Positions 6,331 through 62,171 of a stretch of 64,000 nt of DNA are shown piece after piece. The notes under the pieces are model-generated. The model searched no databases and was not told where the DNA came from. It was given only the letters and a program-made list of their open reading frames with translations. The position numbers and the translations under genes were made by a program. Numbering within the stretch: position 1 is the stretch's first letter; every line of letters begins with the position of its first letter. Origin of the DNA: Nodularia sp. LEGE 06071 (GTDB taxonomy: Bacteria > Cyanobacteriota > Cyanobacteriia > Cyanobacteriales > Nostocaceae); assembly GCF_015207755.1 (NCBI RefSeq), contig NZ_JADEWH010000002.1:434001-498000 (forward strand), given 5' to 3'.

Positions 6331-6363
6331 AGATCCCCGACTTCTCGAAGAAGTCGGGGATCT
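6331..6363. terminator. 15-bp perfect hairpin, terminator-like dispersed element
   Basis: AGATCCCCGACTTCT and AGAAGTCGGGGATCT flank a three-base loop. It lies between the chorismate-mutase-like gene and nadE and lacks a strong T-run. A shorter relative is at 28165-28192, so this is a mobile hairpin repeat that may also stop transcription. Confidence 0.6.
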
Positions 6364-35310: not shown

Positions 35311-35371
35311 CGAAGAAATGGGTTTAAAGCCCCGTCGTTATACGACGGCTTTTTATGGTATTTTAATTAAT

Positions 35372-35396
35372 CTTATACCAAACGTGGTAGTATAAG
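35372..35396. promoter_or_regulatory. Palindrome upstream of tnpB copy 1
   Basis: CTTATACCA-AACG-TGGTAGTATAAG is an imperfect palindrome 16 bases before the tnpB start and just before its ribosome site (AGGAGGT). Similar in position to the perfect palindrome in the second element, although no RHH gene is present here. Confidence 0.4.
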
Positions 35397-35411
35397 ACAG
35401 GAGGTAGAAAG

Positions 35412-60050: not shown

Positions 60051-60213
60051 TAGGTGGTTGAGTGTTTTTTATTTGCAAGTCCCTAAAGTAATTTATCCTA
60101 TTGCAGAGATATAGCAAGCGCCTTGGCGGTTAGCACATGAAAAAATACCAAAACCAAGTCACAGCGATCATTTCAATTTTGACCGAAAATAATGGGATAC
60201 AAGCCCCGCCCTT

Positions 60214-60354
60214 CTAGGACGGCTTTTTATTTGTTTTCAATTTTCTAATCAAATTTCTAAGTACATCAGATTTAGTTCTCTGAGTCACCTTGCAGTAACT
60301 TTCGAGATGCGCCAATTCTTCCTCGGTTAATCGAAAAAATACACTTTTGTTCAT
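60214..60354 (-). CDS. Small ribbon-helix-helix protein of the TnpB element
   Basis: A 46-residue protein: ATG at 60354, TAG at 60214-60216. It starts MNKSVFFRLTEEELAHLESY and continues CKVTQRTKSDVLRNLIRKL, the classic CopG/Arc ribbon-helix-helix pattern: one strand, two helices and a TxSDVLRxLI second helix. It is encoded divergently from tnpB, inside the left end of the element, with its stop codon in the end hairpin. A perfect palindrome lies right at its start, overlapping the upstream region of tnpB, so it is most likely an autoregulator that also controls tnpB. No toxin partner is seen. Confidence 0.7.
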   Translation of the reverse strand: MNKSVFFRLTEEELAHLESYCKVTQRTKSDVLRNLIRKLKTNKKPS

Positions 60355-60356
60355 GG

Positions 60357-60383
60357 TATTGTATATTGATATGATATACAATA
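60357..60383. promoter_or_regulatory. Palindromic operator between the RHH gene and tnpB
   Basis: TATTGTATAT-N7-ATATACAATA is a perfect ten-base inverted repeat immediately upstream of the RHH start (60354) and 24 bases before the tnpB GTG (60407). Its position is what one expects for an RHH operator controlling both genes. Confidence 0.6.
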
Positions 60384-60406
60384 GTAGCAGTTTTGAAGAA
60401 AAAATA

Positions 60407-61585
60407 GTGAAAGCCAGATATAAGTTCCGATTCTACCCGACAAACCAACAGCAACAGCTTTTAGCTCAGTTGTTTGGTTGTGTGCGTGTAGTTTGGAATG
60501 ATGCTTTGGCTATTTGTAAAAAATCTGAGAAACTGCCAAGTAACAACGACTTGCAAAAGTTGGTGATTACCCAAGCTAAAAAGACTGATGAACGTTCGTG
60601 GTTATCTGATGTTTCCAACATCCCGTTGCAACAATCGGTGGCTGATTTAGGGGTTGCTTACAAAAACTTTTTCGATTCCCTTAAGGGTAAGCGCAAAGGC
60701 AAAAAAGTTGGTAGCCCAAAATTCAAGAAAAAGACAAACCAACAATCTGCACGTTTTAGAATCGGCGGATTCTCAGTCAAAGGTAATGAGGTGTATCTGG
60801 CAAAAATCGGCAACTTTAAGCCAATCTGGTCTAGACAACTACCTTCTGCACCTACTTCTTGTACTGTCGTAAAAGACTGTGGTAACCGCTATTTTTTGAG
60901 CTTTGTAGTAGAAGTTGAACCGATTCAAATCGATGCTAAGAGCCAAAGTATCGGGATTGACTTAGGGATAAAAACTTTTGCTGTAATGAGTAATGGTGAT
61001 AAATTTGTTAGCCCTGATTACTCAAAATTGGATAAACAAATTCGTCGCAAGCAGCGCCAATTAGCCCGACAGCAAAAGGAATCAAAGCGTAGAAATAAAA
61101 CCCGAATTCAAATTGCTAAACTGCATAACCAAATTGCAGATACTCGGAAAGATTTCCTACACAAACTATCCACTAAAGTAGTTAGCGACAACCAAGCAAT
61201 TGTTTTGGAAGATTTGAACGTGTCAGGAATGGTCAGAAATCGTAAACTTGCAAGAGCAATTAGTTTACAGGGATGGCGAGAATTCCGGGTATTTTGCGAG
61301 GCTAAAGCTGAAAAACTTAACCGTGATCTCAGGATCATTAGCCGATGGCAACCCACTAGTCAGACTTGTTCTTGTTGTGGGTATAGGTGGGGTAAAGTGG
61401 ATCTCTCTATCCGTTCAGTGCTGTGTTTAAATTGCAATGCTGAACACGACAGGGACGAAAATGCTTCTAAAAATATAGAAATGGTCGGCATGGGGCATCG
61501 GCACGACCTTAAACGGACGAGGAGCGACTATCAGACTACTCCGGTAGCAAGTTGCAGTGATTCGTCAAGAATCACCGCACTTTAA
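60407..61585 (+). CDS. tnpB: TnpB, predicted RNA-guided nuclease (element 2)
   Basis: A 392-residue TnpB from GTG 60407, where homology starts (VKARYKFRFYPTNQQQ). The frame extends 20 codons further upstream to a TTG, but that part overlaps the RHH gene and palindrome. Intact RuvC residues: Asp in SIGIDLGIKTFAV, Glu in AIVLEDLNVSGM and Asp in HDRDENASKNI. Zinc ribbon cysteines in TCSCCGYRWG and VLCLNCNAEH. The C-terminal tail is Ser/Thr-rich (VASCSDSSRITAL) and encoded by the right-end region. Looks intact and potentially active. Confidence 0.9.
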   Translation: MKARYKFRFYPTNQQQQLLAQLFGCVRVVWNDALAICKKSEKLPSNNDLQKLVITQAKKTDERSWLSDVSNIPLQQSVADLGVAYKNFFDSLKGKRKGKKVGSPKFKKKTNQQSARFRIGGFSVKGNEVYLAKIGNFKPIWSRQLPSAPTSCTVVKDCGNRYFLSFVVEVEPIQIDAKSQSIGIDLGIKTFAVMSNGDKFVSPDYSKLDKQIRRKQRQLARQQKESKRRNKTRIQIAKLHNQIADTRKDFLHKLSTKVVSDNQAIVLEDLNVSGMVRNRKLARAISLQGWREFRVFCEAKAEKLNRDLRIISRWQPTSQTCSCCGYRWGKVDLSIRSVLCLNCNAEHDRDENASKNIEMVGMGHRHDLKRTRSDYQTTPVASCSDSSRITAL

Positions 61586-61603
61586 GGGCGGTGAGTATGT
61601 CAA
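61460..61603 (+). ncRNA. Predicted omegaRNA scaffold from the right end of TnpB element 2
   Basis: By analogy with known TnpB systems: 3' part of tnpB plus the right-end stem-loop (TCACCGC to GCGGTGA, 61571-61594) ending at TCAA 61603. The guide would read TATTCTCTGCGAGACACTAC. The 5' boundary is a guess. Confidence 0.35.
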
Positions 61604-62171
61604 TATTCTCTGCGAGACACTACGTGAACGACTAAGTTCACGATAAACTTTTGACTTTTGCTATATATCCCAGGTTAATATTCCCATCGGGTTGTTCTAA
61701 GGGGGAAATTTTCACAAAAATTATTTCCTAAATGTAACTTTTTATCTGAATGAAGGGATTTGTGTCTTTTGGTATATGACTGAGTATAGTGAAAATTTAA
61801 AATAGAGTTATGGCAAGAATCCTAATTATTATTTATAACCACAGATAAACGTCAATGTAGACGCATTCTCAAACACCGAATGCTTTCCCACGGGGTATAC
61901 ATATCAGTTTATTCGTGGTTTTTTACTTTTATTTTTGAAAATTTAACTATAGCAACCGCCAAGGAGGTTAAGACATCAACAGATAATCAAAATTAGACAC
62001 CAAAAGGGTTTTAACTCACTCCCTACTCCCCAGCTATATCAGCTAAATTTTCAATTATGTAGGATGTGTAACGGCAATTCAAAAATTTTAGAGACGTGAA
62101 AAATCACGCCTCTCATTTCTTAGACCTCAAGCACTTTTTACTTAATTATTCACCAGCTTATTTCAACATAC
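61604..62171. other. Intergenic region with a degenerate inverted repeat
   Basis: About 570 bases, no gene seen. AACCACAGATAAAC (61837-61850) and GTTTATTCGTGGTT (61907-61920) form imperfect inverted ends of an 84-base repeat. Confidence 0.5.

Follow-up and report, generated by a model that had tools for sequence, protein, structure and literature searches.

Elements with tnpB are well known within the IS200/IS605 group, which includes IS605, ISDra2 and the IS1341-type elements that carry tnpB only. The TnpB protein is guided by an omega RNA, and the right end of the element contributes to this RNA. Two modes of control have been described around such elements. TldR proteins are nuclease-dead TnpB regulators, i.e. 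the TnpB protein itself is the repressor, and tnpA of IS200 is reportedly controlled by RNA secondary structure, according to a paper of 1999. Ribbon-helix-helix (RHH) proteins act as small regulators in other settings. CopG, a small plasmid-encoded autoregulator, recognizes a palindrome located over the promoter of its own gene; it is encoded in a co-directional operon and keeps plasmid replication in check. RHH antitoxins bind local operators. In autoregulated divergent gene pairs, an operator over the shared promoter region is the usual layout.

The window, i.e. the whole analysed stretch of 64,000 nucleotides, contains a TnpB-only element whose features are compiled in Table 1. Its limits, taken over from a preceding sequence-only reading, proved right: the two genomic copies, at C2 and C5, agree at 1337 of 1395 bases (96%) across the element and have unlike flanks. 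The joined flanks matched across the junction in another genome of the genus (G586:C1:4688793-4688923, query 27-157, 79%). As the flank is a dispersed repeat, this match is regarded as an unoccupied repeat copy, by which the same locus is not proven. Both flanks (60084-60183 and 61604-61703) match many sites in the own and in other genomes of the genus, and the element is located inside this dispersed repeat. The tnpB product harbors three TnpB Pfam domains above cut-off; the OrfB_IS605 and TNB domains and the guided_TnpB model (PF01385, 94 bits; PF07282, 64 bits; NF040570, 304.6 bits) all exceed their cut-offs. The GTG start of tnpB was chosen because the start position is the same in relatives. 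Of the tnpA and tnpB pair that characterizes IS605, an own Y1 transposase was sought in the element and is absent, and the three Y1_Tnp matches of the genome are all located on other contigs. These three Y1 genes could move the element. Mobilization in trans by a Y1 transposase is probable, because related Y1-bearing elements have like ends: where both ends are readable, the left and the right end resemble those of Y1-bearing relatives. The right end is presumed to yield a guide RNA with which TnpB would cleave DNA; an Rfam search gave no match. All 60 fetched loci that carry names stem from cyanobacteria, and a cyanobacterial origin is most likely for the window as well.

Table 1. Features of the TnpB element and of its sister element, with positions in the window
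Feature	Position	Strand	Signature or context	Basis
Inverted repeat of different sequence in the sister tnpB leader, outside the RHH module	35371..35397	.		Inverted-repeat search, relatives
TnpB-only IS200/IS605-type element, no tnpA, 1,420 bp	60184..61603	+	TTGAC on the 5' side (60179-60183), TCAA end	Two 96% copies, shared ends, junction-spanning match
Left-end hairpin region GCCCCGCCCTTCTAGGACGGCTTT	60203..60226	.	Contains the RHH stop codon	Sequence; KPS endings also elsewhere
RHH gene, 46 aa from ATG, divergent from tnpB	60214..60354	-		ORF, Pfam, linkage, dN/dS, model
Palindromic putative operator TATTGTATAT-N7-ATATACAATA	60357..60383	.	Arms 60357-60366 and 60374-60383	Inverted-repeat search, locus comparison
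TACAAT, presumed tnpB -10	60377..60382	+	Within the right palindrome arm	Assigned by eye
tnpB, RNA-guided endonuclease, 392 aa	60407..61585	+		TnpB Pfam domains, NF040570
Hairpin-bearing right end, presumed to form the 3' portion of the omega RNA	61570..61603	+		Right end common to copies and relatives

The hidden 46-residue RHH gene that had been read from the sequence is present divergently from tnpB; the ORF listing gives a longer form of 55 aa from a TTG start. With 19.9 bits (E 6.8e-4), the protein scores slightly below the cut-off of Pfam RHH_1 (20.5). Among 29 aligned homologues, 24 match RHH_1 at E <=0.01 (best 8.6e-8), and 12 match a NikA-like mobilization family at the same threshold. 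The AlphaFold model of the monomer (mean pLDDT 84.9) shows two helices, residues 11-24 and 28-38, with no strand assigned. In a Foldseek search with this model, CopG chains took five of the six best places and other top matches were RHH repressors or antitoxins, all at E >0.6; a CopG profile matches residues 1-29 weakly (E 0.14). About 8 residues follow the second helix, and the C-terminus reads KPS because the stop codon sits within the left-end hairpin. The same ending is found in several Y1 and MPF (see below) partner proteins that occupy this slot in other elements. Two types of the protein, denoted FFR and DFR, differ at residues 4 and 6 (S4 and F6 versus R4 and D6), which align with the DNA-contacting strand of CopG. 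The sequence-only reading had named a kept frame and dN/dS as its test in advance, and the frame is indeed kept: for pairs with dS of 0.05-2, median dN/dS is 0.12 in the FFR type (51 of 171 pairs) and 0.11 in the DFR type (14 of 45 pairs), with all values <0.5. The RHH gene is real and, judged by these ratios, under purifying selection. At one plasmid locus, where the gene table is incomplete, no feature is annotated under the RHH gene.

Similar RHH genes were fetched from 83 loci. The 43 rows at tblastn E <=3e-15 include six double fetches and correspond to 37 distinct loci; in 36 of these, tnpB or a fragment of it is oriented divergently to the RHH gene. Three of the 37 came via TnpB; with the RHH search alone, the count is 33 of 34. 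L044 harbors an RHH gene without recognizable tnpB, and L238, L035, L034 and L031 retain tnpB fragments only, some of them at contig ends. Among the 40 weaker rows, 13 show tnpB or a fragment, which indicates that the RHH family at large also occurs in other contexts; two loci among these 13 (L061, L223) have an RHH gene interrupted by a stop. Four RHH loci are situated on viral contigs. TnpB adjoins RHH in three of them (L289, L291, L292), and at L290 the sole TnpB match is antisense to RHH itself, with no recognizable tnpB. A search of phage records for the RHH protein gave no match.

Between the two genes lies the perfect ten-base palindrome claimed before, with arms of 10 bp that are 100% complementary and separated by a 7-nt spacer. 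The start codon of the RHH gene is 2 nt away and that of tnpB 23 nt. When the 52-bp gap was shuffled with its dinucleotides preserved, arms of >=10 came up in 4 of 5000 cases. Perfect repeats with arms >=10 and a loop of 3-15 occur at four distinct places in the 64 kb, the other three being at 6331, 9748 and 57351. In 42 of 45 RHH-tnpB intergenic regions, the -10 place is taken by a TA[ACT]AAT hexamer (TATAAA allowed); a scan of 60150-60480 for a sigma-70 consensus promoter and for terminators found none.

The 45 intergenic regions were compared around one axis, with the -10-like hexamer as anchor. Twice-fetched loci, the loci with broken RHH (L061, L223) and L243, a near-copy, were excluded; after operators of near-identical sequence had been merged, 38 of the 45 remained. 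Complementarity of the arms at the fixed axis amounts to 72% in 18 FFR loci, compared with 14-45% when the axis is displaced by one to four half-steps, to 58% in 12 DFR loci (slid 13-36%) and to 49% in 8 other loci (slid 18-34%). With right arms shuffled among the 30 FFR and DFR loci, the observed score of 240/360 was never reached in 20000 shuffles (mean 213.5, sd 6.6), and across all 35 merged loci, 2 of 5000 shuffles with swapped arms came up to the score of the real pairs. Within groups formed by right-arm sequence, no covariation of the arms was detected (3511 and 1888 of 5000 shuffles were as good); the paired change therefore lies between RHH types, and the claim rests there. It may reflect one old cassette that split and then spread.

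The operator agrees with the type of the RHH protein. At position 4, T-A is present in 17 of the 18 FFR loci, and all 12 DFR loci have C-G; the one exception, L041 (C/A), encodes arginine at residue 4, like the DFR type. Both RHH types are present in both TnpB clades, which are ~28% identical, and the operator tracks RHH, not TnpB. The rule fits three viral-contig loci outside the set from which it was derived; for L290, whose hexamer is altered, the anchor was set by position, and L292, whose RHH start was not located, was excluded. Poor left arms are seen in L225, L224 and L046 of the 12 DFR loci and in L036, L222 and L041 of the 18 FFR loci. At loci where TnpB measures >=300 aa and a -10-like hexamer is present, the mean operator score out of 12 is 7.3 with RHH (n=25), 3.5 without partner (n=44; one scoring 8) and 3.0 with Y1 (n=11). 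The best hexamer was used where several were present (mean number per locus 1.36, 1.18 and 1.0, respectively), and single-locus classes were left out. A score of >=8 is attained by 11 of 25 RHH elements, 1 of 44 without partner and none of 11 with Y1; the score is below 8 in 14 of the 25 RHH loci. In the genome, perfect operators occur only in the two RHH elements. With <=2 mismatches, the pattern is found once per RHH element, at the promoter, and nowhere at the element ends; genome-wide there are 4 such sites versus 5 for a reversed control pattern, and hence no sign of host operons under RHH. Good comparative evidence points to the palindrome, placed across the presumed -10 of tnpB, as the cognate operator of RHH.

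For the sister element at 35.3 kb, the sequence-only reading had described a comparable palindrome, no RHH gene, and possible control in trans. An inverted repeat is present (TCTTATAC, 35371-35378; GTATAAGA, 35390-35397) and no divergent RHH ORF is located between the left-end hairpin and tnpB; the motif itself is a different one and is placed in the leader, beside the ribosome-binding site. Control of the sister by RHH is not supported and was rejected, as the repeat is devoid of any RHH operator half-site, the arms vary in part of the relatives, and perfect RHH operators are confined to the two RHH elements. By inspection, sister-type relatives (L010, L012, L260, L262-L265, L268, L107, L124, L157, L158, L170, L120 and L284 were read) show other paired arms, i.e. 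TTATGCT/AGCATAA, TTTATGTT/AACATAAA, TTACGC/GCGTAA and TTATCGT/ACGATAA, or no clear repeat. The arms differ together, as though a hairpin or several distinct operators had been kept, and the sister repeat would rather resemble a hairpin in the leader or an operator of another kind.

The divergent slot of related elements contains a Y1 transposase, RHH, another small protein, or nothing, and even TnpBs 71-85% identical to that of the window are accompanied by Y1, RHH, MPF or no partner. A survey of 106 intact tnpBs from 10 genomes, drawn from the best listed rows of 252 PF07282 matches with open frames of >=340 aa, detected no partner in 93, Y1 in 5, RHH in 4, MPF in 3 and another RHH-like protein in 1. 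Four near-identical rows of one genome (the fifth was fetched), three contig-edge rows and one 1531-aa frame were excluded, and six tnpBs with short upstream sequence set aside. On a quick tree of 90 TnpBs, picked to cover every partner type and without L086 and L088 as near-copies of L083/L084, the RHH label changes 16 times, at least 8 of these forced by well supported branches, versus 29 changes with shuffled labels; all partner labels change 27 times versus 45. Single placements are unsure because some long branches were flagged. By this tree, the slot content changes repeatedly. Clustering of upstream ORFs yielded, beyond the known partners, clusters that read as antisense-to-tnpB shadows or left-end repeats.

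Members of the MPF family (MPFQKKHKLGF..., ~58 aa) are encoded divergently from tnpB at L066, L067, L083, L091, L021 and L022, and show no match above cut-off in Pfam. They also adjoin very distant TnpBs of 450 aa, and the six loci have in common a pseudo-palindrome near TATTGGTATACTAATA ahead of tnpB. Confidence in the MPF structure model is low (pLDDT 65), and an RHH nature of the protein is a guess from sub-threshold VapB matches. Close relatives with Y1 (L058-L060, L062, L063, L068, L070, L072, L075-L079 and L092) harbor repeated GACCAAT-like boxes round the tnpB -10, with an inverted copy inside the tnpA start; perhaps these are the site of yet another regulator. Further small proteins are encoded divergently from other tnpBs at L008 (61 aa), RHH-like by eye only, and at L064 (48 aa), with weak NikA-like and MbpA mobilization matches and RHH_1 below cut-off.

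The element is quite likely a TnpB-only transposon with an autoregulated divergent RHH module. This layout had already been proposed for it, and the conserved RHH gene, a palindrome that tracks RHH and the agreement between protein and operator type are consistent with it. Points against it are the operator scores below 8 and the poor left arms at several RHH loci, the missing covariation within right-arm groups, the negative sigma-70 scan, the strandless monomer model with its high Foldseek E-values, the share of 4 in 106 surveyed tnpBs, the interrupted RHH of L061/L223, and L044 and L290 with RHH but no recognizable tnpB. RHH and operator would very probably keep the TnpB nuclease controlled. 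It is supposed that the RHH protein binds the intergenic palindrome, probably as two dimers. Bound RHH would shut off both the tnpB and the RHH transcript, because the presumed -10 of tnpB falls within the palindrome and the RHH start is 2 nt away from it. In a cell that already holds a copy, the RNA-guided nuclease would stay low. Upon arrival in an RHH-free cell, the element would meet no repressor, which would lead to a brief TnpB burst and later silence; we infer that such a course would favor retention of the element and limit damage.

Other roles of the RHH gene are conceivable to different degrees. The RHH gene stands where related elements with like ends encode their Y1 transposase, and 12 of 29 homologues match a NikA-like mobilization family. 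The protein might mainly assist transposition: having taken the place of tnpA, it would mark or bend the element for an outside transposase, with the promoter site being secondary. This role is unlikely: the operator pattern (<=2 mismatches) is restricted to the promoter and absent from the element ends, and the palindrome overlaps the presumed -10. RHH folds are also common among antitoxins, several of the fold matches are antitoxins, and loss of the element would leave the nuclease uncontrolled, as would suit a toxin-antitoxin-like pair in which RHH neutralizes the TnpB protein by binding. Yet the protein barely exceeds the RHH core, its terminal KPS derives from the left-end hairpin, the same RHH family is found beside TnpBs only ~28% identical, and the genes are divergent and form no single operon. 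The toxin-binding region beside a toxin gene that marks type II systems is absent from this 46-aa protein, whose neighbor is TnpB, and such a pair is very improbable.

Two further explanations concern the palindrome. In part of the sister family, leader repeats with arms that differ together indicate that hairpins ahead of tnpB may occur, so the palindrome could be an RNA or DNA leader hairpin and the RHH gene incidental. A mere hairpin would not need type-linked half-sites, and here the half-site is nearly fixed per RHH type, shifts with the protein type and tracks RHH presence, which counts against this explanation and leaves it with a very slight probability. A chance ORF next to a chance palindrome in an AT-rich gap would accord with the single-sequence Pfam score of the window RHH slightly below cut-off, but it is hardly credible in view of the linkage, the dN/dS values, the RHH_1 matches of the homologues and the operator tests.

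Beyond the autoregulated module of this one element, a broader view can be put forward tentatively, as possible and still rather doubtful: in cyanobacterial TnpB elements, the transposase may have been repeatedly swapped for one of several repressor-plus-operator cassettes, namely the two specificities of RHH, MPF and perhaps another two proteins that look RHH-like. The RNA-guided nuclease of such elements would be silent in cells with a copy and fire in naive cells, and the specificities would define compatibility groups among elements. If this is true, nuclease induction on entry would resemble zygotic induction. If TnpBs of ~28% identity are accompanied by a repressor of their own whose operator code can be read, nuclease control becomes testable with simple reporters; whether elements are incompatible with one another, and whether TnpB bursts upon entry into a new cell, are questions that follow.

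Among the titles and abstract beginnings of the matches listed in literature searches for TnpB with RHH, CopG, repressor or antitoxin, no such module was found; subscription papers are mostly outside this scope, and an earlier description is possible. RHH and TnpB are each mentioned, apart from one another, in the accessible parts of PMC13092281 and PMC8987985. In the accessible text of PMC9956272, the strings 'small ORF' and 'cyanobacteri' are absent and its passages name no such gene.

Compared with the described systems, the element shares with IS200/IS605 elements that carry tnpB the TnpB domains, the end hairpins, the TTGAC flank and the TCAA end, whereas it lacks tnpA and carries the RHH gene and the putative operator in the divergent slot. 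As in IS200, expression of an IS200-type element would be limited, there by RNA structure acting on tnpA and here by a protein that binds DNA. In this respect, the sister at 35.3 kb is perhaps closer to IS200. Like TldR, the locus ties a TnpB lineage to transcription control, but TnpB would be the repressed gene. The ParD, VapB and AtaR types of RHH antitoxins probably have the RHH fold in common with the protein, judged by fold matches, and a local operator would be a further shared trait; in contrast to them, it possesses no toxin-binding tail and is followed by no toxin gene. CopG (PDB 1ea4, 1b01, 2cpg), a stand-alone RHH protein of 45 aa, provides the top fold matches; the difference is that the RHH gene here is divergent from a transposon nuclease.
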